DNA from: a virus
Strand: one strand, 5' to 3'
Length of the DNA: 31,639 bases
IMG/VR virus record: IMGVR_UViG_3300030389_001568
Location: 1-31,639 of that record
Positions within the stretch are counted from its first letter, which is position 1; each line of letters begins with the position of its first letter. Made by a program: the position numbers and the translations under genes. Below are positions 931 through 29,722 of the stretch, piece by piece. The notes beneath the pieces were generated by a model. The model saw only the letters and a list, made by a program, of their open reading frames with translations, was not told where the DNA came from and ran no database searches.

Positions 931-1434
931 ATGCATAAAAATATATTAACAGAACAAGCCTTATATTATGGCGATGTAAAAATGCCTAAAGGTTTTGAAA
1001 TTAATCATCATAAATTAAAATCCGAAATTTTACAATCAAAAATTGAAAATCGTGATTTTAGATTTTGTAAAGATTGGGATAAATTAAATACTTTTATTAG
1101 AGAACATATCTATCTTAAATTTAAGATTGCATTAATTAATAAATCAACATGGGGAAATTTATTTAAACCATTAACAAATACTGAATCTTTATTAGAAGTT
1201 AATTTAATGGATCTTAAACATGCTCCTGACTTTGTATTATTATATGGAGTACAAGTAAAAGATTGTTTAATAAAAATATTTTATGATAATAACAGAAGAA
1301 AAGGAAACTGTTGGGATATAGAACTTAAAAATAATATGTTTATAATGTTTCCTTCGACTAATACATATACTATTCATAATAAAAAAAATGATGATTTAAA
1401 TATTATTCAAACAATAACTTATGAATATACTTAA
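931..1434 (+). CDS. Hypothetical protein, possible degenerate dioxygenase-fold relative
   Basis: 167 aa, after a 43-nt AT-rich gap (888-930) without a Shine-Dalgarno sequence. The C-terminal third, FIMFPSTNTYTIHNKKN then LNIIQTITYEYT, has the layout of the last strands of a 2OG-Fe(II) dioxygenase core: a FPS turn, a His, then a closing beta-strand. I find no HxD pair before it and no distal Arg in the usual place, so if it is a relative it is probably catalytically dead or binds something else. It overlaps the next gene by 14 nt and heads the dioxygenase block. Codon use is extremely AT-rich, like its neighbours. The fold assignment is inference and would need structure prediction. Confidence 0.5.
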   Translation: MHKNILTEQALYYGDVKMPKGFEINHHKLKSEILQSKIENRDFRFCKDWDKLNTFIREHIYLKFKIALINKSTWGNLFKPLTNTESLLEVNLMDLKHAPDFVLLYGVQVKDCLIKIFYDNNRRKGNCWDIELKNNMFIMFPSTNTYTIHNKKNDDLNIIQTITYEYT

Positions 1435-2053
1435 TCATTATTGGTGGTTTAAATCAGCAATACCTCCTAGAGTTTGCGATGATATAATTAGATATGGATT
1501 ATCTAAATCTGAATCTATGGCTCTTACTGGTGATTACCAAGAAAAAAAATTAACAAACGATCAAATTAGAGATTTAAAAAGAAAAAGAAATTCAGATTTA
1601 GTTTGGCTTGACGATCATTGGATATATAAAGAATTACATCCATTTATTCATAGTGCAAACAAATCTGCTGGTTGGAATTTTGATTGGGATAGGTCAGAAT
1701 CCTGTCAATTTACAAAATATAAATTAAATCAATATTACGATTGGCATCAAGATTCATGGGATAAACCTTATGATAGACCAGGTAAACCTGATCATGGAAA
1801 AATTAGAAAACTATCTATGACTTGTCAATTAACAGATGGATCTGAATATGAAGGTGGCGAATTAGAATTTGATTTTAGAAATTATGATCCACATATGCGA
1901 GATGATTCTAAACATAGAATACAATGTAAAGAGATATTACCAAAAGGATCTATTATTGTATTTCCTAGTTTTGTTTGGCATAGAGTTAAACCTGTAACAA
2001 AAGGAGTTAGATATTCATTAGTTATGTGGAATATTGGATATCCTTTTAGATAA
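1421..2053 (+). CDS. 2-oxoglutarate/Fe(II)-dependent dioxygenase, PKHD hydroxylase type
   Basis: 210 aa with the most complete prolyl-4-hydroxylase-like core in the block: YYDWHQDSWD supplies H109 and D111, FPSFVWHRVKPV supplies the distal H187, and GVRYSLVMW supplies R197, which would bind the 2OG carboxylate. EGGELEF (144-150) and GSIIVFPSF are the usual surrounding strands. The family couples 2OG decarboxylation to hydroxylation of a protein, peptide or small molecule. The substrate is unknown; the position between tail fibre and tail-tube-side genes suggests a virion or cell-surface target. The start overlaps the previous gene by 14 nt without a Shine-Dalgarno sequence, suggesting coupled translation. 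First of five consecutive relatives. Confidence 0.85.
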   Translation: MNILNHYWWFKSAIPPRVCDDIIRYGLSKSESMALTGDYQEKKLTNDQIRDLKRKRNSDLVWLDDHWIYKELHPFIHSANKSAGWNFDWDRSESCQFTKYKLNQYYDWHQDSWDKPYDRPGKPDHGKIRKLSMTCQLTDGSEYEGGELEFDFRNYDPHMRDDSKHRIQCKEILPKGSIIVFPSFVWHRVKPVTKGVRYSLVMWNIGYPFR

Positions 2054-2054
2054 C

Positions 2055-2684
2055 ATGATAATAAATGAATATTTTAAAACACCTTTCTGGATAATAGAAA
2101 AACCAGAATTTATAACATCTCTAAATAATGCTTCTAACAAATATATAAAAGAAGCCAAAAAAATAGAAAAAAATTATATAAAAAAATATGGAGATTTTGG
2201 AAGAAGTTATCATTCAACACAACTTACATTAGATAATGATTTTTTAGATTTTAGAAATTTTATTGGTCAAAAATCTTGGGAATTTTTAAATTGGCAAGGT
2301 TTTGATATGTCAGAATATACAACTATATTTTCTGAGTTATGGGTACAAGAGTTTTCTAAAAAAGGTGGTGGTCATCATTCTGCACACATACATTGGAACC
2401 AACATGTATCAGGTTTTTATTTTTTAAAGTGTAGTGATAAAACTTCTTTTCCAGTATTTCATGATCCAAGGACTGGTGCACGAGCTACAAAGTTAAAATT
2501 AAAAAATCAAAATAGTATTTGTTACGGAACTGAATTAGTAAATTTTAGATTAAAACCTGGATCTTTAATTATATTTCCAGGGTATTTAGAACATGAGTTT
2601 GCAGTAGATCATGGTATAGAACCTTTTAGATTTATACATTGGAACATACAAGCTCTTCCAAAAGGAACAACTAAAGATGTTTAA
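2055..2684 (+). CDS. 2OG-Fe(II) oxygenase-like protein (TIGR02466 / 2OG-FeII_Oxy_5 type)
   Basis: 209 aa from ATG 2055, one base after the previous stop. An upstream in-frame TTG at 2034 lies inside the previous gene and is less likely. The sequence HHSAHIHWNQHVSGFYFLK (107-125) matches the H-x-H...SG(V/F)YYL pattern of the TIGR02466 family; LEHEFAVDHG (179-188) gives the distal H180 and PFRFIHWN gives R192. The proximal site reads H111-x-H113 instead of the HxD of the other members, so the metal ligands differ or the family uses another residue. It overlaps the next gene by 8 nt. The fold is clear; catalysis and substrate are inferred from family membership only. Confidence 0.75.
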   Translation: MIINEYFKTPFWIIEKPEFITSLNNASNKYIKEAKKIEKNYIKKYGDFGRSYHSTQLTLDNDFLDFRNFIGQKSWEFLNWQGFDMSEYTTIFSELWVQEFSKKGGGHHSAHIHWNQHVSGFYFLKCSDKTSFPVFHDPRTGARATKLKLKNQNSICYGTELVNFRLKPGSLIIFPGYLEHEFAVDHGIEPFRFIHWNIQALPKGTTKDV

Positions 2685-3186
2685 TAATATATTTTATAAA
2701 ATTAATTTAAGTTGGACTAATAAATTTGTTAAAGATAATATAACAAATATAGAAAAAAATTATAGTTTGTATCCAAATAATAACAGATGGGAATGTAATT
2801 GTCATACTATCCATGATAATGATGAAAAAGTATATCCTATTAATTATGTTTTTTTGAGAAAAGAATATGAAAAAATAGCTGTTGAAGTTTGTAAAAATTA
2901 TAATATCAACAAATATTATTTAAGTGATATATGGTATAACTATTACAAAAAACAACAATACCAAGAGCCACATATCCACGATGGAAATGGTGGATTAACA
3001 GCAGTTCATTATTTAATATTTGATGCAAAAAAACATTCAAAAACTTGTTTTAATAATATAGAATCACCAAATATTGACGAGGGAGATATTTTATTTTTTC
3101 CAGATAATTTAGAACATTTTGTTCCCGAAAATAAAACAGATAGTCCAAGATTAACTGTAGCTTTTACAATAACAAAAATTAATTAA
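2677..3186 (+). CDS. 2OG-Fe(II) oxygenase-like protein
   Basis: 169 aa. QEPHIHDGNGG (96-106) carries H99, H101 and D102; LFFPDNLEHFVPEN (139-152) gives the distal H147; SPRLTVAFTI gives R158 on the closing strand. This is the double-stranded beta-helix order seen in phage 2OG oxygenases. As in the preceding gene, HxH replaces HxD, with an Asp directly after. There is a weak AAGGAA about 12 nt upstream of the ATG. The gene is among the most AT-rich in the window, with many AAA, AAT and TTT codons. Substrate unknown. It ends one base before the next ATG. Confidence 0.65.
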   Translation: MFNNIFYKINLSWTNKFVKDNITNIEKNYSLYPNNNRWECNCHTIHDNDEKVYPINYVFLRKEYEKIAVEVCKNYNINKYYLSDIWYNYYKKQQYQEPHIHDGNGGLTAVHYLIFDAKKHSKTCFNNIESPNIDEGDILFFPDNLEHFVPENKTDSPRLTVAFTITKIN

Positions 3187-3187
3187 T

Positions 3188-3673
3188 ATGAGTTTTAAAA
3201 TAATAGATAATTATTTAAATAAAGATGATCATTCTTTATTAAAAACAATAATGGAATCTGATAACTTTCCTTGGTTTTTCAACGATTTTAAAATTAGAAA
3301 AGGTGAAAATAAATTGTTTTCATATCAATTTGTTCATATATTTTATATTAATGATAATATTAATTCTGATTATTTTAAAAGATTAGAACCTTTGTTAAAA
3401 AAAATAGATTATAAATCTTTGATAAGAATAAAAGCTAACTTAAATCCTATATCAAATGAATTAATTGAATTTGATAAACATACAGATCAAAATTTTAAAT
3501 GTAAATCAGCTATATATTATGTTAATAATAATAATGGTTTTACAATTATAGATGGTAAAAAAATAGAAAGTAAAAAAAATAGGATTGTTTTTTTTGATTC
3601 ACAAACAAAACATTATGGTACAAATAGTACAAATTGTAATAATAGAATGGTAATTAACTTTAATTATTTTTAA
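3188..3673 (+). CDS. 2OG-Fe(II) dioxygenase, prolyl 4-hydroxylase-like
   Basis: 161 aa, compact. FDKHTDQNFKCKSAIYYVN (95-113) supplies H98 and D100; IVFFDSQTKHYGTNST (133-148) supplies the distal H142; NNRMVINFNYF supplies R153. The set HxD...H...R is intact. The N-terminus, MSFKIIDNYLNKDDHSLL, resembles the start of many phage dioxygenases of this kind, which open with a short strand and a helix. No Shine-Dalgarno sequence is present. The next ATG overlaps the TAA by one base (TAATG), so translation is probably coupled. The substrate cannot be deduced; small members like this are often annotated only as oxygenases. Confidence 0.75.
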   Translation: MSFKIIDNYLNKDDHSLLKTIMESDNFPWFFNDFKIRKGENKLFSYQFVHIFYINDNINSDYFKRLEPLLKKIDYKSLIRIKANLNPISNELIEFDKHTDQNFKCKSAIYYVNNNNGFTIIDGKKIESKKNRIVFFDSQTKHYGTNSTNCNNRMVINFNYF

Positions 3674-4296
3674 TGTCTTTTAAAAAAAATAAATATACAG
3701 TAATTAGACAAGCTATATCAAAAGATTTAGCTTCTTTTGTTTCAAATTATTTTTTAATGCAAAAACAAGTTTATGATACTTGTAGACAAGCAAGATACAT
3801 TTCACCTTATGAAACTATTATTGGATACTATGAAGGTGAAAACGAACAAATACCAAATACATATTCTCAATATGCTAACATGGCTATGGAAACTTTATTA
3901 CTTAAATGTCAACCAGTTATGGAAAAAGCAACAGGTCTAAAATTATATCCAGCTTACACTTATGCTAGAATATATAAAAAAGGTGATGAATTGAAAAGGC
4001 ACAAAGATAGATTTAGTTGTGAAATATCAACGACTATGAATTTAGGAGGTGATGACTGGCCAATATATTTAGAGCCTTCTGGAGAAGTCGGTAAAAAAGG
4101 TGTTAAAGTTGATTTAAAACAAGGAGATATGCTTGTTTATTCTGGTTGTGAACTAGAACATTGGAGAGAAAAATTTAAAGGTAAAGAATGTGTTCAAGTA
4201 TTCTTACATTATAACAACCGTAAAACTCTAGGCGCAAAAGATAATATTTTTGATAAACGACCTCATTTAGGTTTACCTTCTTGGTTTAAAAGATAA
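3673..4296 (+). CDS. 2OG-Fe(II) dioxygenase-like protein
   Basis: 207 aa. The core runs YARIYKKGDELKRHKDRFSC (97-116) with H110 and D112, then STTMNLGGDDWPIYLEP, then GDMLVYSGCELEHWRE (151-166) with the distal H163. I could not place the usual distal Arg confidently; the strand CVQVFLHY follows where it is expected, with K171 nearby. It is the last of five consecutive dioxygenase-like genes. An extra C-terminal tail rich in basic and aromatic residues (KRPHLGLPSWFKR) is not part of the core. GC content is slightly higher than in the two genes before it. Function is hydroxylation or related oxidation by family; target unknown. Confidence 0.75.
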   Translation: MSFKKNKYTVIRQAISKDLASFVSNYFLMQKQVYDTCRQARYISPYETIIGYYEGENEQIPNTYSQYANMAMETLLLKCQPVMEKATGLKLYPAYTYARIYKKGDELKRHKDRFSCEISTTMNLGGDDWPIYLEPSGEVGKKGVKVDLKQGDMLVYSGCELEHWREKFKGKECVQVFLHYNNRKTLGAKDNIFDKRPHLGLPSWFKR

Positions 4297-21403: not shown

Positions 21404-22462
21404 ATGAAAGCATTAGGAACATACATTTTTGCAGGAGGTTTTACTCTTGGTGTTAAAAAACATTTTGATATAGAAGCACATTTTGAAAGTAAACCAGGAT
21501 TATATAAAAAAACATTTAAAGCTAATTTTCCAAAAATACCAGTTTATGAAGGTGAAGATGATTGGCCTATAGAAAAATATAAAAATAAAATAGATTTTGT
21601 ATATTGTAATCCACCATGTGCGCCTTGGTCTAATTTAGGTGGTGCTCAAAAAGGTGCGGGAGCATGGAAAGATGATCCTAGAATTAAATGTTGGAGAGAT
21701 AGTTTTGATTTATTAAGAAAGATAGAACCTAAAGCTATTGCAATTGAATCGGTTCCTAGAGTTTATAGCAAAAATGGCGGTAGACCGATGATCATGGACT
21801 TAACTAAAAAAGCAAATTACTTAGGTTATCAAGTTACTCATTTACTAATTGATGGTGGTTTTACAGGATTAAATCATTCAAGAAAAAGATTTTTCTTTAT
21901 AGCAACTAAATATGATTTAAATGCAGGAGGTTTAAACTTTCAACCTTTACCAACTGCAGGTGAAGTATTAGGCTCTTTTAAAAAAGAACATGGAAAAGAT
22001 ATTGGTCATTTGATGAAATTAGGAGAAAACGAAAAACCTTATCTTAAACATTGTAAACAAGGAGAAAGTTTAAGAGTTACATGGGAAAGATATAATCCAC
22101 CAGAAACTTGGGTAAGAGGAGGTATGCGTGGAGGAGTTAAAGGTAGACCACAATTTATGAAATGGAGATTAAAATCAGATGCTCATATACCAGTTATTGC
22201 TGGAGGATTTTATATACATCCTACAGAGGATAGATTATTTGGTCATAAAGAATTAGCTTATATGGCAGGGTATCCAGTAAATTACAAATGGGAAGGACCT
22301 GCTTCATCTATCGGATCACAAATTGCAAGAGGTGTAATGCCACCTGTCGCTGAATATGTAGCAAGAATAATAAAAAATAGTATTAAAGAAAAAGTAAAGA
22401 CTAAAGAAGAATTAAAAATAGTAGATTATAGAAAGGTACCAGAACAAGAAGCTTTACTATGA
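21404..22462 (+). CDS. DNA cytosine-5 methyltransferase
   Basis: 352 aa, 18 nt after the helicase, with AAAGAAAGAA upstream. FAGGFTLGVKKHFDIEAHFE (9-28) is motif I/II for S-adenosylmethionine; FVYCNPPCAPWSNLGG (65-80) is motif IV with nucleophile C72; AIAIESVPR (111-119) is motif VI with E115 (ESV for the usual ENV); HSRKRFFFIA (158-167) is motif VIII; and IARGVMPPVAEYV near the end is motif X. A complete C5-MTase with a variable region that should set the target. The recognition sequence is not deducible. No restriction gene is adjacent, so protection from host enzymes or entry into a hypermodification route are both possible. Confidence 0.88.
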   Translation: MKALGTYIFAGGFTLGVKKHFDIEAHFESKPGLYKKTFKANFPKIPVYEGEDDWPIEKYKNKIDFVYCNPPCAPWSNLGGAQKGAGAWKDDPRIKCWRDSFDLLRKIEPKAIAIESVPRVYSKNGGRPMIMDLTKKANYLGYQVTHLLIDGGFTGLNHSRKRFFFIATKYDLNAGGLNFQPLPTAGEVLGSFKKEHGKDIGHLMKLGENEKPYLKHCKQGESLRVTWERYNPPETWVRGGMRGGVKGRPQFMKWRLKSDAHIPVIAGGFYIHPTEDRLFGHKELAYMAGYPVNYKWEGPASSIGSQIARGVMPPVAEYVARIIKNSIKEKVKTKEELKIVDYRKVPEQEALL

Positions 22463-22989
22463 ATAAAAAACAATTAAAAAAATTTATAGAAGAAAGAACT
22501 TTATCTACACCAATTAGTGAATATGAAAAAAGTTTAGATCAAAAAGATCAGTTTGCTTGTATGGATTGTGATACTTTAATTCAAGATATTGATGCTTTTC
22601 ATAAAAAATTTATGTTTGAAAAAAATGAAAAAGTTGGTATTCCAGATAATAATGAACTCGTAAATTTTAGAACATCTTTTTTAATGGAAGAACTTGCAGA
22701 ATATACACAAGCAATAACTAAAAAAGATGCAGCAGGAGCATTAGATGCTCTTGTAGATATAGTTTATATTGCTTTAGGTACTGCTTGGCTTTTTAATTTA
22801 CCATTTGAAAGAGCATGGAGACAAGTGCAAAAAGCTAATATGAGTAAAATAAGAGCTAAAAGTAAATCAAAAAAACGAGGTACATCATTTGATGTAGTTA
22901 AACCTAAAGGTTGGATTGCACCAGATATTGAACAAATAATAGAAGAAGAAAGGGAAAAACAAAATGAAAATATTAGTAACAGGGTTTAA
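22459..22989 (+). CDS. MazG-like nucleotide pyrophosphohydrolase
   Basis: 176 aa; ATGA overlap with the methyltransferase. Residues 66-120 form an all-alpha NTP-PPase core: FLMEELAEYTQAI has E77, E78 and E81, and ALDALVDIVYIALGTA has D96 and D100, the EExxE and D...D magnesium site. The N-terminal 60 residues carry a C34-x2-C37 pair of unknown use. Such enzymes split NTPs or dNTPs into NMP and pyrophosphate. Among C5-MTase, glycosyltransferase, kinase and hydroxymethylase genes, a dCTP/dUTP-cleaving role like that of T4 gp56 is plausible; ppGpp or housekeeping NTP hydrolysis cannot be excluded. Confidence 0.8.
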   Translation: MNKKQLKKFIEERTLSTPISEYEKSLDQKDQFACMDCDTLIQDIDAFHKKFMFEKNEKVGIPDNNELVNFRTSFLMEELAEYTQAITKKDAAGALDALVDIVYIALGTAWLFNLPFERAWRQVQKANMSKIRAKSKSKKRGTSFDVVKPKGWIAPDIEQIIEEEREKQNENISNRV

Positions 22990-24010
22990 TGCTTTATCAA
23001 TTGGTACAGCAAGATCACCATTAAATATAGCATCATCTGCTAGAATTTTACCAAAAGTTTTAGAAGAATTAGGACATGAAGTAATTCAAAAAGCTATTAT
23101 CCCGGGAGAAGATGTATCTATGTATGATAAAGTTTTTGTATTTGTATTTGGTCCAAATAGTTTATCAGCAAGATATTGGTATGGTGCTGCATATACAATT
23201 ATAAAAAGACCTGATGCAATAGTTTCTATTGACGATTGGCAAACTAAAGATTCAGTAAGTGGATTTAGAACATTTAGTAATGGTCATTGGAGAATATGGA
23301 AAAAAGTTTCTAAAGCAGGTAATCCTGTAGGCAAAGTTAATTGGGACGAGGCTCAACCATATAAAAAAGAGATTGAAGATTTAGTTGATCATTTTGCTCA
23401 TAAAGAATGGCCACACAAACTTTTAATACCAGCATATGATGGTGGTAATTACGATGAATTAGGTATAAAAGCTAAAGAAATTGTCAATTGGGATCCATCT
23501 GCATATACAGATACATATTTAAAAAGTCCTGATAATCAAGAAGATTTATTAGCAAGTTTTGCACCAAATGATGGAATAAAAGAAAATGCGTGGATTTGTG
23601 CTAGTCTTGTAAGTAAACAAGGTTGGCTGAATGGTCAAAATTTTAAATGGCGAGTTAAAACTTTTGGTAATCAAAGAGAAGGTCAAACTAGATTAAAAGA
23701 ACACGAAATGTTTCAAGAGTATAGAAAAGTATGGGGGATAATAAGTCCTCCGCATTATCATACAGCTAAAGGATCGGGTTGGTGGAGAGTAAGATATAAA
23801 ATGGCATTAGATGCTAAATGTATAGTTTATGCTCACCCTGAAGAAGCTAAAATTTTAGGTTTAAATTGTGATTTAAATAAAATAGAAAATTCTAATAAAG
23901 AAGAATTATTAAATATTTCAAGAGAGCATATGGATACTTTAAAAGTTAAATTTTGGAATAGAGAAAGAACTAAAGAATTTTTTAAATGTTTATTAGAGGA
24001 AAAATCTTAA
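22964..24010 (+). CDS. GT-B fold glycosyltransferase, possible DNA glucosyltransferase
   Basis: 348 aa, overlapping the MazG-like gene by 26 nt. The N-terminal MKILVTGFNALSIGTARSPL, followed by ILPKVLEELGHEV and YDKVFVFVFGPNSL, is a Rossmann half like that of T4 beta-glucosyltransferase. The C-terminal KGSGWWRVRYKMALDAKCIV (269-288) and the closing helices (ELLNISREHMDTLKVKFW) have the donor-binding layout of GT-B enzymes. SIDDWQTKD (88-96) is a second conserved-looking patch. No membrane segment is present, so a soluble acceptor is likely. Placement among nucleotide-modification genes suggests transfer of sugar to hydroxymethylated DNA; polysaccharide or protein acceptors remain possible. 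The similarity is at fold-pattern level only. Confidence 0.65.
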   Translation: MKILVTGFNALSIGTARSPLNIASSARILPKVLEELGHEVIQKAIIPGEDVSMYDKVFVFVFGPNSLSARYWYGAAYTIIKRPDAIVSIDDWQTKDSVSGFRTFSNGHWRIWKKVSKAGNPVGKVNWDEAQPYKKEIEDLVDHFAHKEWPHKLLIPAYDGGNYDELGIKAKEIVNWDPSAYTDTYLKSPDNQEDLLASFAPNDGIKENAWICASLVSKQGWLNGQNFKWRVKTFGNQREGQTRLKEHEMFQEYRKVWGIISPPHYHTAKGSGWWRVRYKMALDAKCIVYAHPEEAKILGLNCDLNKIENSNKEELLNISREHMDTLKVKFWNRERTKEFFKCLLEEKS

Positions 24011-24543
24011 TTGTAGAAGGACCAGATGGTGTAGGTAAAACTACATTAATTAATAGAATAAAAGAAAAATTTAAAAATAATTTCTACATGCATTTAAGAG
24101 TGCATAAAAATATGAAATTATGGCATACTGCAACTGTTAGATTAGCTATAAAAAAACAAATGCTTGGTAAATTAGTTTTATTAGATAGACATTGGCCAAG
24201 CGAACAATGTTATTCTTACATAAGAAGTAATGGACCTAGTTATAATCCAAGACAATTATATAATATTTTAAAAGATAGAGGTGCTAAATATGTTTGGTGT
24301 ATTCCAGAAGATAGACAAAGAGTTAAAGAAAATCATAGAATTAATAGAGAATTGCGACATGAAGAATATCATGATATTGATAATGTTATTGATGATTATT
24401 ATTTTTCATGGTTTGGTAAGTGTAAGCGAAATAATTTTTTGACTACGCTATCGCCGTTGAGTAACAGAAAAGATTTTATAAGATATGATTTATTTAAAGA
24501 CGGTCATAAAATGGACGCATTTATTGATAAGATATTAAATTAA
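23986..24543 (+). CDS. P-loop deoxynucleoside monophosphate kinase (thymidylate kinase-like)
   Basis: 185 aa, start overlapping the glycosyltransferase by 25 nt. KILIVEGPDGVGKTTLINRI (6-25) is Walker A with K18; LVLLDRHWPSEQCYSY (63-78) holds the DR(Y/H)xxS motif with D67-R68; and ENHRINRELRHEEYHD is a lid-like basic segment. This is the thymidylate-kinase fold, reading shorter than bacterial Tmk. In the T4 scheme gp1 phosphorylates hydroxymethyl-dCMP, dTMP and dGMP. Next to the hydroxymethylase-like gene (TAATG overlap) such a substrate is likely. It could also be a plain dTMP kinase. Confidence 0.8.
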   Translation: MFIRGKILIVEGPDGVGKTTLINRIKEKFKNNFYMHLRVHKNMKLWHTATVRLAIKKQMLGKLVLLDRHWPSEQCYSYIRSNGPSYNPRQLYNILKDRGAKYVWCIPEDRQRVKENHRINRELRHEEYHDIDNVIDDYYFSWFGKCKRNNFLTTLSPLSNRKDFIRYDLFKDGHKMDAFIDKILN

Positions 24544-25379
24544 TGAAAGATATAAATTCACGATATAAGAAAATGTTATGGGATGTATATCGTCAGCCTG
24601 ATTTTATTTGTAAACCTAGAGATTTAAAAATAAGTGAAAAGATAAATCATACTTGGAAAGTTGATATGGATGATCCTATTATTACTTTACCAGAGAGAAA
24701 ATTATCTTATCCATTTATGTTTGGTGAAGCTACATGGATGCTTCAAGGTAAGAACGATGTAGAAAGTGTAAGTAAATATGTAGGTGGTATTAAAAGATTT
24801 AGTGATGATGGTGAAACTTTTTTTGGTGCCTATGGTCCTAAAATTATTACTCAATGGGGTTATGTAGTTAAAACATTAATAAATGATCAAGATAGTAGAC
24901 AAGCAATAATAAGTATATGGAGAGAAAATCCAAGATCAAGTAAAGATATTCCATGTACTTTAACATTACAATTTTTTTTAAGAGAAGCAAGCGATCAATT
25001 ATGGTTACATACTATTGCTAATATGAGAAGTAACGATGCATGGTTAGGTGTACCATATGATACTTTTAATTTTAGTGCTATTTCTTTTTTTATTGTATTA
25101 CATTTAAATAAATTAGGAATAAAATGTAAATTAGGTGAATTAACTATTCAAGCAGGTAGTAGACATATTTACGAAACAGATTACTCAAAACTTGATAAAA
25201 TTTTTGCATCTGATTTTCATGATGAAAGCGAAATATCTTTAAATAATTTAATTGATAAATATTCTAATGACCCTAAAAAATTTATAGATATACTACAAGA
25301 AATGGCAGATTTAGAAGGTACAGAGCTTAGACTTAATGGTATGTTATCAGAAAGGCTTAATTACCTTCTTCATGGATAG
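24543..25379 (+). CDS. ThyA-family enzyme, predicted dCMP hydroxymethylase
   Basis: 278 aa. Thymidylate-synthase-family landmarks: E62 (GEATWMLQG), R119 (DSRQAIISIW), nucleophile C138 (IPCTLTLQFF), NMRSNDAWLGVPYDTFNFS (160-178) with D165, and GSRHIYETDY with H208 and Y210. At the position of E. coli ThyA N177, which reads the uracil ring, this protein has D173 in VPYD. T4 dCMP hydroxymethylase has Asp there too (D179), and Asp favours cytosine. MRSND is also shared with T4 gp42. I predict 5-hydroxymethyl-dCMP from dCMP and methylene-tetrahydrofolate. ThyA-like tryptophans before the GxYG segment are not conserved. Ordinary dTMP synthesis is the alternative. Confidence 0.8.
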   Translation: MKDINSRYKKMLWDVYRQPDFICKPRDLKISEKINHTWKVDMDDPIITLPERKLSYPFMFGEATWMLQGKNDVESVSKYVGGIKRFSDDGETFFGAYGPKIITQWGYVVKTLINDQDSRQAIISIWRENPRSSKDIPCTLTLQFFLREASDQLWLHTIANMRSNDAWLGVPYDTFNFSAISFFIVLHLNKLGIKCKLGELTIQAGSRHIYETDYSKLDKIFASDFHDESEISLNNLIDKYSNDPKKFIDILQEMADLEGTELRLNGMLSERLNYLLHG

Positions 25380-25830
25380 ACCACCTGTAGATTTTTATTT
25401 TTTAAGAATGGCATTTTTAGTTTCAGAAAGGGGAACGTGTGCGAGAAGAAGGGTTGGTTGTGTTTTCGTAAATAAGAGAAATCATGTTATTGCAACTGGA
25501 TATAATGGAGCGCCTAGTGGTTTTAAACATTGTATAGATAACCCTTGCAATGGAACAAAATTTAAATCAGGCGAAGGTTTAGAAGAATGTGAAGCTATTC
25601 ATGCAGAACAGAATGCTATCTTACAATGTAAAGATGTCTACGACATTGACAGGGTTTATACTACACTTGAACCTTGCGTCCATTGTATTAAACTTCTACT
25701 TAACACTTCAGCAAATCAAATTATATATGGTGAACAATATGTACACGAGAAAGCAAGAAATTTATGGAAGATGTCAGGAAGAGGTTACACTTTTATAGAT
25801 AAGAAAGTATTAGAAGATAAATTAAATTGA
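25372..25830 (+). CDS. dCMP deaminase
   Basis: 152 aa from ATG 25372, which overlaps the previous stop by 8 nt; an upstream in-frame ATG at 25336 lies deeper in the previous gene and adds non-family residues. CARRRVGCVFVNK is the usual first strand; AIHAEQNAI (75-83) has the zinc ligand H77 and catalytic E79; and TLEPCVHCIK (98-107) has C102 and C105. Additional Cys and His residues in KHCIDNPCNG may form the second structural site of phage deaminases. It converts dCMP to dUMP, balancing pyrimidine pools. Beside the hydroxymethylase-like gene, both enzymes would compete for dCMP, as in T4. Confidence 0.93.
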   Translation: MDRPPVDFYFLRMAFLVSERGTCARRRVGCVFVNKRNHVIATGYNGAPSGFKHCIDNPCNGTKFKSGEGLEECEAIHAEQNAILQCKDVYDIDRVYTTLEPCVHCIKLLLNTSANQIIYGEQYVHEKARNLWKMSGRGYTFIDKKVLEDKLN

Positions 25831-27686: not shown

Positions 27687-28967
27687 ATGAATATTGGATT
27701 TTTAGGACTAGGAAAACTAGGTTTACCTGTAGCACTAGCAGTCGAAAGTAAAGGCCACAATGTTTTTGGTACAGATATTAATGAAACAACTTTAAGAAAT
27801 ATAAGATTTAAAACACTCAATTATAAAGAAAAAGGTGCTCAAGAGCTATTAAATAATTCTAAAATACAAATAAAAAATATTGAGCAAATTGTATCTGACT
27901 CTGATATAATTTTTGTCCCTATTCAAACACCTCATGATGAAAAATACGAAGGTATAACAAGAATACCAAAAGAAAGAAAAGATTTTAATTATGAATTTTT
28001 AAAAAATGGTGTTAAAGATTTAAGTGATGAAATAGAAAAACAAGGAAAAGATAAAGTTGTAGTAATAATTTCTACAGTTTTACCTGGAACTATTAGAACT
28101 CATATAAAACCTATTTTAAGTAAGCATGTAAAACTTTGTTATAATCCATATTTTATAGCTATGGGTACAACGATTGATGATTTTTTAGGAGCAGAAATAA
28201 ATTTATTTGGTGTTGATGATGAAGAGGCTGCAAATAAAGCAGAAGAATTTTATAAAACAGTAAATAAATCTCCATTCTTTAAAACTACAATTGAAAATGC
28301 AGAACTAATTAAAGTTGGATATAATACTTTTATTTCTACTAAAATTGCAATGATTAATACTTTAATGGAAACATGTCATAATTTGCCTAACACTAATATT
28401 GACGACATCAGTAAAGCTTTTTCTTTATGCGATACAAGATTAATTAGTGATAAATATTTATATGGTGGTATGGGAGATGGAGGAGGTTGTCATCCCCGGG
28501 ATAATATAGCTTTAAGTTATTTAGCTAAAAAATTAAATGTATCATATAATTGGTATGAAGGAATTATGTCACAAAGAGAAAAACAAACTGATTGGTTAGC
28601 TGATTTAATTGTTAGTGAAAAGTTTGAAATGGATATAAATATTTTAGGTAAATGTTTTAAACCAGAAACAAATTTAACATTAGGTAGTCCATCAATATTA
28701 CTTAAAAATATTTTAGAAGAAAGAGGAGAAAGAGTAAAAATGTGGGATCCTTATGTTGATTCAATTGATATGAAAAATGTTTCTCAAGAAATGGAATGGG
28801 AAACTAAACCACAATTATTCTTTATTGGTACTAAACACGAGGCTTTTAAACACTTTTATTTTTATCCTAATTCGGTAGTCATTGATCCATTTAGGTATCT
28901 TAAATTAGGAAATGAAGTTAAATATATTCCTATTGGAGACAATACATGGAAGCAAAAGACAGAGTAA
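27687..28967 (+). CDS. UDP-glucose/GDP-mannose dehydrogenase family protein (nucleotide-sugar dehydrogenase)
   Basis: 426 aa. MNIGFLGLGKLGLPVALAV is the NAD-binding GxGxxG strand with D30 at the end of the second strand. IISTVLPGT is the family STVxPGT motif. ENAELIKVGYNTFIS gives K209 and N213, and GDGGGCHPRDNIAL gives nucleophile C268 and D272, spaced as in UDP-glucose dehydrogenases (K-N-C-D). The reaction is a two-step oxidation of a UDP-hexose to a UDP-hexuronic acid using two NAD+. The donor sugar could feed the phage glycosyltransferase or alter the cell envelope. Only 3 nt separate it from polA, and it overlaps nadE by 22 nt, tying it to NAD+ supply. Confidence 0.88.
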   Translation: MNIGFLGLGKLGLPVALAVESKGHNVFGTDINETTLRNIRFKTLNYKEKGAQELLNNSKIQIKNIEQIVSDSDIIFVPIQTPHDEKYEGITRIPKERKDFNYEFLKNGVKDLSDEIEKQGKDKVVVIISTVLPGTIRTHIKPILSKHVKLCYNPYFIAMGTTIDDFLGAEINLFGVDDEEAANKAEEFYKTVNKSPFFKTTIENAELIKVGYNTFISTKIAMINTLMETCHNLPNTNIDDISKAFSLCDTRLISDKYLYGGMGDGGGCHPRDNIALSYLAKKLNVSYNWYEGIMSQREKQTDWLADLIVSEKFEMDINILGKCFKPETNLTLGSPSILLKNILEERGERVKMWDPYVDSIDMKNVSQEMEWETKPQLFFIGTKHEAFKHFYFYPNSVVIDPFRYLKLGNEVKYIPIGDNTWKQKTE

Positions 28968-29722
28968 AGATAATAACCGATTGGATAAAAGACTATGTTG
29001 AGAGTATGGATACTCCAGCTAATTGTTTAGTTGTAGGAGTTTCTGGTGGAATTGATTCATCAGTAGTTTCTACATTGTGTGCACGTACTGGAATAAAAAC
29101 ACTCGTAGCTTCCATGCCAATATCTCAAAGACCCGAGCATCATGATTTATCTATTAAACATAAAAATTGGCTTACAAGTAAATATCAAAATGCTTATGGT
29201 GTAGAAATAGATTTAACTGGAGCATACTTATCTTTTGAAAATATTTTAACTGATAAAAAATTTACTTCTGATTTAGGTTTAGCAAACTCAAAAGCAAGAT
29301 TACGAATGATGACTTTATATCAAATATCTGCGAGTACATCAGGTTTAGTTGTAGGTACAGGTAATAAAGTGGAGGACTTTGGTGTTGGTTTTTATACAAA
29401 ATATGGTGATGGTGGTGTTGATATATCACCTATCGCTGATTGTAATAAAAGTCAAGTATGGGCTATGGGTAAAGAGTTAGGTATTTTAGAGGAGATACAA
29501 ATGGCTGAACCTACTGATGGTTTATGGTCTGATGGTAGAACAGATACAGATCAATTAGGTATGAGTTATAAAGAGATAGAACATTTAATGTCTAGACCAG
29601 ATGAAGTTGGTTATGATAAGTATCTTGCAATTAGAAAGAAGAATTTGCATAAGATGAAACCAATCCCTGTATGTAAATTTGATGGAAAAGACACTCTGGA
29701 CACAGATCAGAAAGAAACTTAA
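28946..29722 (+). CDS. nadE: NH3-dependent NAD+ synthetase
   Basis: 258 aa. LVVGVSGGIDSSVVSTL (28-44) is the PP-loop (SGGIDSS) that binds ATP. ANSKARLRMMTLYQIS is the NadE helix pattern, VVGTGNKVEDFGVGFYTKYG the nicotinate adenine dinucleotide site, and PTDGLWSDGRTDTDQLG the mobile loop of NadE. It lacks the glutaminase domain, so it uses ammonia. It amidates NaAD to NAD+. Length is typical of ammonia-type NadE (about 270 aa). The gene overlaps the dehydrogenase upstream by 22 nt and the nuclease downstream by 41 nt. It could sustain NAD+ for the dehydrogenase or offset NAD+ depletion by host defence. Confidence 0.93.
   Translation: MEAKDRVKIITDWIKDYVESMDTPANCLVVGVSGGIDSSVVSTLCARTGIKTLVASMPISQRPEHHDLSIKHKNWLTSKYQNAYGVEIDLTGAYLSFENILTDKKFTSDLGLANSKARLRMMTLYQISASTSGLVVGTGNKVEDFGVGFYTKYGDGGVDISPIADCNKSQVWAMGKELGILEEIQMAEPTDGLWSDGRTDTDQLGMSYKEIEHLMSRPDEVGYDKYLAIRKKNLHKMKPIPVCKFDGKDTLDTDQKET

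Follow-up and report, generated by a model that had tools for sequence, protein, structure and literature searches.

A dehydrogenase–NadE gene pair as a possible sugar-acid cassette on a putative DNA-glycosylation operon of a probable SAR11 phage

A UDP-sugar dehydrogenase (UGDH) and a NadE-family protein are encoded by the last two genes of a same-strand operon in a viral record of 31,639 bases, here called the window. The window is probably a fragment, as related records reach up to 56 kb. We tentatively favor the reading that the pair is a sugar-acid cassette appended to an operon for DNA glycosylation, in which the NadE-family enzyme would amidate a hexuronate, and a glycosyltransferase resembling the T4 beta-glucosyltransferase (BGT) would transfer the sugar to hydroxymethylcytosine. 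To judge by its family, UGDH would convert a UDP-hexose, probably UDP-glucose, to UDP-hexuronate. A NadE-family enzyme would adenylate a carboxylate and then amidate it with ammonia; the co-occurrence of the two genes and a set of gene fusions point to the carboxylate of the hexuronate as the most likely one here. The product would be a UDP-uronamide, or the sugar could be amidated after its transfer. A dCMP-hydroxymethylase-like enzyme would provide hydroxymethylcytosine, to which the BGT-like transferase would attach the uronamide sugar. Amidation would cancel the additional negative charge of a uronic acid on DNA. Weighing the catalytic motifs and the NadE tree against the fusions and the pairing, we place this reading first and a genuine NAD+ supply near behind.

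The initial annotation described the two open reading frames, their 22-nt overlap and their position directly after polA, and all of these are confirmed (Table 1). UGDH starts 3 nt downstream of polA. Close relatives keep both frames at 70–95% identity, so neither is a chance reading frame.

The UGDH protein (426 aa, ATG start) matches two of the dehydrogenase domains (PF03721, PF00984), and the third, PF03720, is just below the cut-off (29.7 vs 30 bits). It scores above the cut-off of the NCBIfam model for nucleotide sugar dehydrogenases (TIGR03026), and its PHROG family is named 'UDP-glucose dehydrogenase'. The catalytic landmarks GGGCHPRD (Cys) and AELIKVGYN (Lys, Asn) are kept, and the catalytic Asp is also present. 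The canonical glutamates of the NPE...E motif are absent from the window UGDH, which reads NPYFIAMG at this place. In a comparison of the window UGDH with UGDH-family loci L341–L413, the same holds throughout the GGGCHPRD subfamily, where NPYFIAMG or NPFFIAMG is found and the NPE glutamate is replaced by Tyr or Phe; the GGPCLPRD subfamily of cyanophages retains NPEFIAQG. Because the canonical glutamates are missing, we infer the product and file the protein as a nucleotide sugar dehydrogenase. Judged by sequence, this assignment is firm at the family level, and the family suggests that the substrate is probably UDP-glucose.

The NadE protein (258 aa, ATG start) matches PF02540 at 6e-46 and reaches 159 bits with the TIGR00552 nadE model (cut-off 63.65). 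Its PHROG family is named 'NAD synthetase', and its P-loop, an SGGxDS ATP-pyrophosphatase motif, occupies residues 33–39. These matches make the assignment firm at the level of the NadE family.

Table 1. Features of the operon and of the terminal gene pair; positions refer to the window.
Position	Strand	Feature	Family matches and remarks
21404..22462	+	C5-cytosine DNA methyltransferase	PF00145; head of block
22459..22989	+	MazG-like NTP pyrophosphohydrolase	PF01503; kept in the block of relatives
22964..24010	+	GT-B glycosyltransferase, T4 beta-glucosyltransferase-like fold; candidate DNA glycosyltransferase	phrog_14998
23986..24543	+	dNMP kinase-like	PF02223
24543..25379	+	ThyA-superfamily enzyme, dCMP/CMP-hydroxymethylase-like	
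25336..25830	+	dCMP deaminase	PF00383
25827..27683	+	DNA polymerase A (polA)	immediately 5' of the pair
27687..28967	+	UDP-sugar (probably UDP-glucose) 6-dehydrogenase, GGGCHPRD subfamily (UGDH)	PF03721/PF00984, TIGR03026, phrog_9148
28946..28967	+	UGDH/NadE reading-frame overlap, 22 nt	direct reading; relatives overlap by 4–44 nt
28946..29722	+	NadE-family ammonia-dependent amide synthetase, annotated NAD synthetase	PF02540, TIGR00552, phrog_11189, SGGIDSS

Upstream of the pair, the operon includes genes for the methyltransferase, MazG, the glycosyltransferase, the kinase, the ThyA-like protein, the deaminase and polA. Gene content and a predicted fold together suggest that the operon encodes a T4-like set of enzymes for making glycosylated hydroxymethylcytosine. 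No Pfam family matches the glycosyltransferase. Its AlphaFold model was built from a deeper alignment (pLDDT 84) and replaced an earlier one (pLDDT 60). In a Foldseek search with this model, T4 BGT takes ranks 1–3 (1bgt/1nzd/1qkj, E 2.6e-5); BGT is also at rank 1 in VIA-align (Z 16.6, 283/348 residues, rmsd 3.9 A), with SenB nearly tied at 16.2. No link to BGT could be detected from the sequence, where hhalign aligned only 46 columns with a probability of 11%. Given the predicted fold and a hydroxymethylase-like neighbor, the protein is probably a DNA glycosyltransferase.

The best PDB match of the ThyA-like protein is MilA CMP 5-hydroxymethylase with 99 bits, whereas thymidylate synthase scores 42 bits, and T4 gp42 is matched by hhalign at E 8.8e-10. 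Residue D173 is invariant in RSNDxWLGxPYD and takes the place of the dUMP-binding Asn of thymidylate synthase. The block seems to produce hydroxymethylcytosine as a nucleotide, and the C5-cytosine methyltransferase is conserved at its head. Distant homologs of the window glycosyltransferase (28%, H73–H91) are found in T4-like Aeromonas phages, where their annotation is 'hypothetical protein', and in Gordonia phages; they are candidate DNA glycosyltransferases of these phages.

In the window clade (glycosyltransferase identity at least 66%, region covered), UGDH is always located between polA and the next gene. NadE is present in all but two contigs (L318, identical to L086, and L339), which carry UGDH without NadE. 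The sister clade (glycosyltransferase identity 45–51%) keeps the whole block and has no UGDH or NadE at the same place; no UGDH match was found anywhere in the eight sister-clade records examined. Since the block is kept there without either gene, the comparison marks UGDH–NadE as a cassette that was gained or lost at the site between polA and the neighboring gene. The sister clade also has the glycosyltransferase without UGDH or NadE, and the donor may therefore be plain UDP-glucose. Sixteen positions of the glycosyltransferase, five of them within residues 9–18, have one fixed residue in the window clade and another in the sister clade; as a single phylogenetic contrast, these differences are compatible with a changed donor.

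The earlier proposal that UDP-hexuronate feeds the glycosyltransferase is thus strengthened in part, by the BGT-like fold, the hydroxymethylase-like neighbor and the clade-wide position of UGDH beside the glycosyltransferase. The initial annotation would have given it up had the genes been found apart and without the glycosyltransferase in most relatives, and here the result is mixed. UGDH stays beside the glycosyltransferase in the window clade, but the sister clade has the glycosyltransferase alone, and elsewhere the pair occurs with other glycosyltransferases. For the window clade, which probably infects SAR11, we predict that the DNA carries an acidic or amidated sugar; the sister clade, with the same block and without UGDH and NadE, is a natural control.

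The host is likely SAR11, to judge by a pelagiphage-like polA and a NadE that is sister to that of SAR11. The nearest named relatives of the window polA are those of phage DSL-LC04 and HTVC023P-type pelagiphages (39–43%). Beside the tail region, positions 1421–4296 encode several small consecutive proteins, two of which match 2OG-Fe(II) oxygenase families; the others are similar by eye.

NadE and UGDH genes no more than 3 kb apart were found in 185 phage loci with 15 UGDH clusters, in both gene orders. UGDHs were collected with a profile of divergent UGDHs and clustered at 65% identity; some contigs are counted twice among the 185 loci, and the 15 clusters are the safer figure. The overlap of the two genes is most often 4 nt and usually 4–44 nt. 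Among named phages, 15 of 15 records with a NadE of at least 47% identity carry UGDH adjacent or very near, and the UGDHs of these records are down to 28% identical to that of the window. None of the named-phage records whose NadE is of another, more distant type has UGDH. In T4-like cyanophages (~460 records by NrdB), UGDH and NadE are found in the same nine records and never singly; ~450 records have neither. In large freshwater phages the two genes are not neighbors, yet 17 of 20 long records have UGDH elsewhere, and its seeming absence from beside NadE in the T4-like freshwater phages is misleading. A matched set of large freshwater phages, picked by another marker gene, comprises 11 records with both genes, four with NadE only, four with UGDH only and nine with neither (one-sided p 0.03; p 0.008 without two NadE-only records that seem truncated before the expected UGDH position). 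The association in this group is moderate. Related large freshwater phages also conserve, within a few kilobases of NadE, a reading frame that resembles an iron superoxide dismutase and has no PHROG match (L042:14084–14746). A 'CN hydrolase' beside the Sf-FS3 pair was considered as a glutaminase partner and dismissed, as it has no Pfam support. The pairing recurs across phages and adjoins a probable DNA glycosyltransferase, and we agree with the initial annotation that it is functional and not accidental.

The pair could serve glycans of the envelope or virion and not DNA, with UDP-uronate used by glycosyltransferases of the host or by undetected ones of the phage. Cyanophages and Pelagibacter phage HTVC008M have the pair within sugar clusters that also contain epimerases, glycosyltransferases, and carbamoyl- and O-methyltransferases; loci L377–L406 likewise have it in O-antigen-like clusters. 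SAR11 genomes contain related UGDHs beside glycosyltransferases, and one contig of the window clade (G643) has a GT2 match. However, no GT2 match was found in the relatives that measure 56 and 52 kb, records that are possibly incomplete, and the BGT-like transferase of the same operon is the sole glycosyltransferase recognized in the window. We consider a role in glycans unlikely for the window.

Fusions of NadE with glycosyltransferase domains bear on the substrate of the NadE relatives. In L085:8529–9965 NadE is joined to a GT2 domain (PF00535), and in L389:8238–10004, L403:2193–3929, L404 and L405 its partner is a GT47-like domain; in all of them UGDH follows directly. A standalone homolog of the GT47-like domain matches exostosin/AO75L at 1.8e-19, and the two fusion partners are unrelated types of glycosyltransferases. 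Such a fusion is hard to explain for an enzyme that only makes NAD+ and is natural for one that completes a donor sugar. The recurrence of NadE with UGDH, together with the fusions, suggests that the NadE relative works on the sugar.

The main competing reading is that NadE is a genuine NAD+ synthetase that enlarges the NAD+ pool of a tiny host cell during UGDH activity and replication, with UGDH still feeding the DNA glycosyltransferase. We regard this as a serious possibility, ranked second. Besides the TIGR00552 cut-off being passed, it is favored by ancestry. In a quick version of the NadE tree, the window protein is sister to the housekeeping NadE of SAR11 (SH-aLRT 99). This phage-like-subfamily NadE is the only NAD synthetase of SAR11 and is encoded in a housekeeping locus (L087–L166, L172). 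The SAR11 proteins branch within a mostly phage NadE tree. The catalytic motifs are identical in UGDH-paired phages, unpaired phages and SAR11, and no residues consistently separate paired from unpaired or housekeeping NadE across the paired groups. Bacterial genomes examined that have this subfamily always have it as their sole small NadE, and so its ancestral activity presumably was NAD+ synthesis. Amidation of NaAD by the window NadE is plausible, given the motifs common with the sole NadE of SAR11. A second bacterial NadE beside UGDH was not found in genome searches that covered Pseudomonadota and viral records, many of the latter being fragments: this NadE type occurs in SAR11 and in one further Pseudomonadota genome, each time as the sole NadE, and the UGDH islands of SAR11 have no NadE nearby. 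The near identity of the window NadE to the sole SAR11 enzyme counts against uronamide synthesis, as do the two relatives with UGDH only. An AsnB-type amidotransferase, which might stand in for NadE, was found in none of 22 UGDH-only phages.

The gene pairing itself is predicted by NAD+ supply too, as UGDH is net NAD+-reducing (two NAD+ per UDP-uronate). The initial annotation saw in it an NAD+ consumer paired with an NAD+ maker; the genes are indeed paired, but this interpretation is weak on chemical grounds, since NAD+ is reduced by UGDH and not destroyed. The resulting NADH is recycled by respiration and creates no stoichiometric need for new NAD+; what the reaction does generate is a carboxylate. 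The fusions join NadE to glycosyltransferases and not to UGDH. The pair is not accompanied by other NAD genes: NAMPT/NAPRT was found in only one of 28 NadE/UGDH phages, the 642-kb LR756502. Moreover, with the last step alone encoded, the flux would rest on NaAD of the host.

Phage pathways that restore NAD+ exist, and the window NadE seems able to make NAD+. A further reading, in outline that of the initial annotation, is that NadE restores NAD+ lost to host defense (Thoeris, DSR2, SIR2-type), with UGDH being incidental or altering the envelope. NAD+ depletion, however, leads to nicotinamide- or ADPR-type products, on which NadE could act only after processing by salvage enzymes. The window has no recognized enzyme of this kind, and the near absence of NAMPT/NAPRT from the NadE/UGDH phages lends the suggestion no support. 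It would also leave the almost perfect association with UGDH among named phages without explanation, and we consider it very improbable.

The preferred reading, amidation of a hexuronate, has a precedent for a substrate shift in 3fiu, which among solved structures is nearest to the window NadE. This is the Francisella NadE homolog (NMN synthetase), whose substrate has shifted to NaMN (PMC3376133). NadE genes of marine phages, annotated as NAD synthetases, are currently taken to support host NAD+ metabolism or counter-defense. The link to UGDH and the glycosyltransferase fusions suggest that many of them may belong to sugar biosynthesis. If true, a common auxiliary gene would be reannotated, and a new activity would be added to the NadE family. 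A NadE-family uronamide synthetase was not found in the literature searched. It is rather doubtful that the full combination, NadE-family amidation of UDP-hexuronate and a glucuronamide-like sugar on hydroxymethylcytosine, is realized as an undescribed base modification.

Several known systems resemble the window in part. The T4 gp42/BGT pathway, which produces DNA with glucosyl-hydroxymethylcytosine, has in common with it a hydroxymethylase-like enzyme, a GT-B glycosyltransferase (BGT being the top structural match), a dNMP kinase, a MazG-type protein and a location near DNA polymerase. The window glycosyltransferase is only ~14% identical to BGT, and the window adds UGDH–NadE, the C5-methyltransferase and a polA-type polymerase.

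DNA of Bacillus phage SP-15 contains phosphoglucuronate on 5-dihydroxypentyluracil, and the phage encodes UGDH (PMC5977210). Its authors suggested that the glucuronosyl group is probably a lactone, which avoids extra negative charge (PMC5977210). The window shares with SP-15 a phage-encoded UDP-glucose dehydrogenase tied, in SP-15, to a uronic-acid DNA sugar. In contrast to the window, SP-15 modifies thymine positions, its UGDH is 28% identical to that of the window, and no NadE of the window type was found in it. For arabinosyl-hydroxymethylcytosine of RB69, UDP-glucuronate is one proposed precursor (PMC6024577). RB69 is a T4-like phage that alters the sugar on hydroxymethylcytosine, as we propose for the window; no UDP-xylose synthase or 4-epimerase was recognized in the window.

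Conversion of a uronic-acid sugar to a uronamide is an established step of O-antigen pathways, performed by WbpS/WbqG of the AsnB family (PMC7468200). These enzymes, like the window NadE, are encoded beside uronate biosynthesis, but they belong to AsnB and not to NadE. The window protein as a WbpS-type amidotransferase (AsnB, PF00733) is ruled out, since it is a PF02540 protein; its uronamide activity, if any, would be a functional analogy to WbpS/AsnB and not membership. Finally, UGDH and NadE have each been listed separately as auxiliary genes of cyanophages and HTVC008M (PMC10452541, PMC7029224). In these phages the two genes are likewise adjacent and have been annotated individually. There, NadE precedes UGDH within glycan clusters, whereas in the window UGDH precedes a SAR11-type NadE within a DNA-modification operon.
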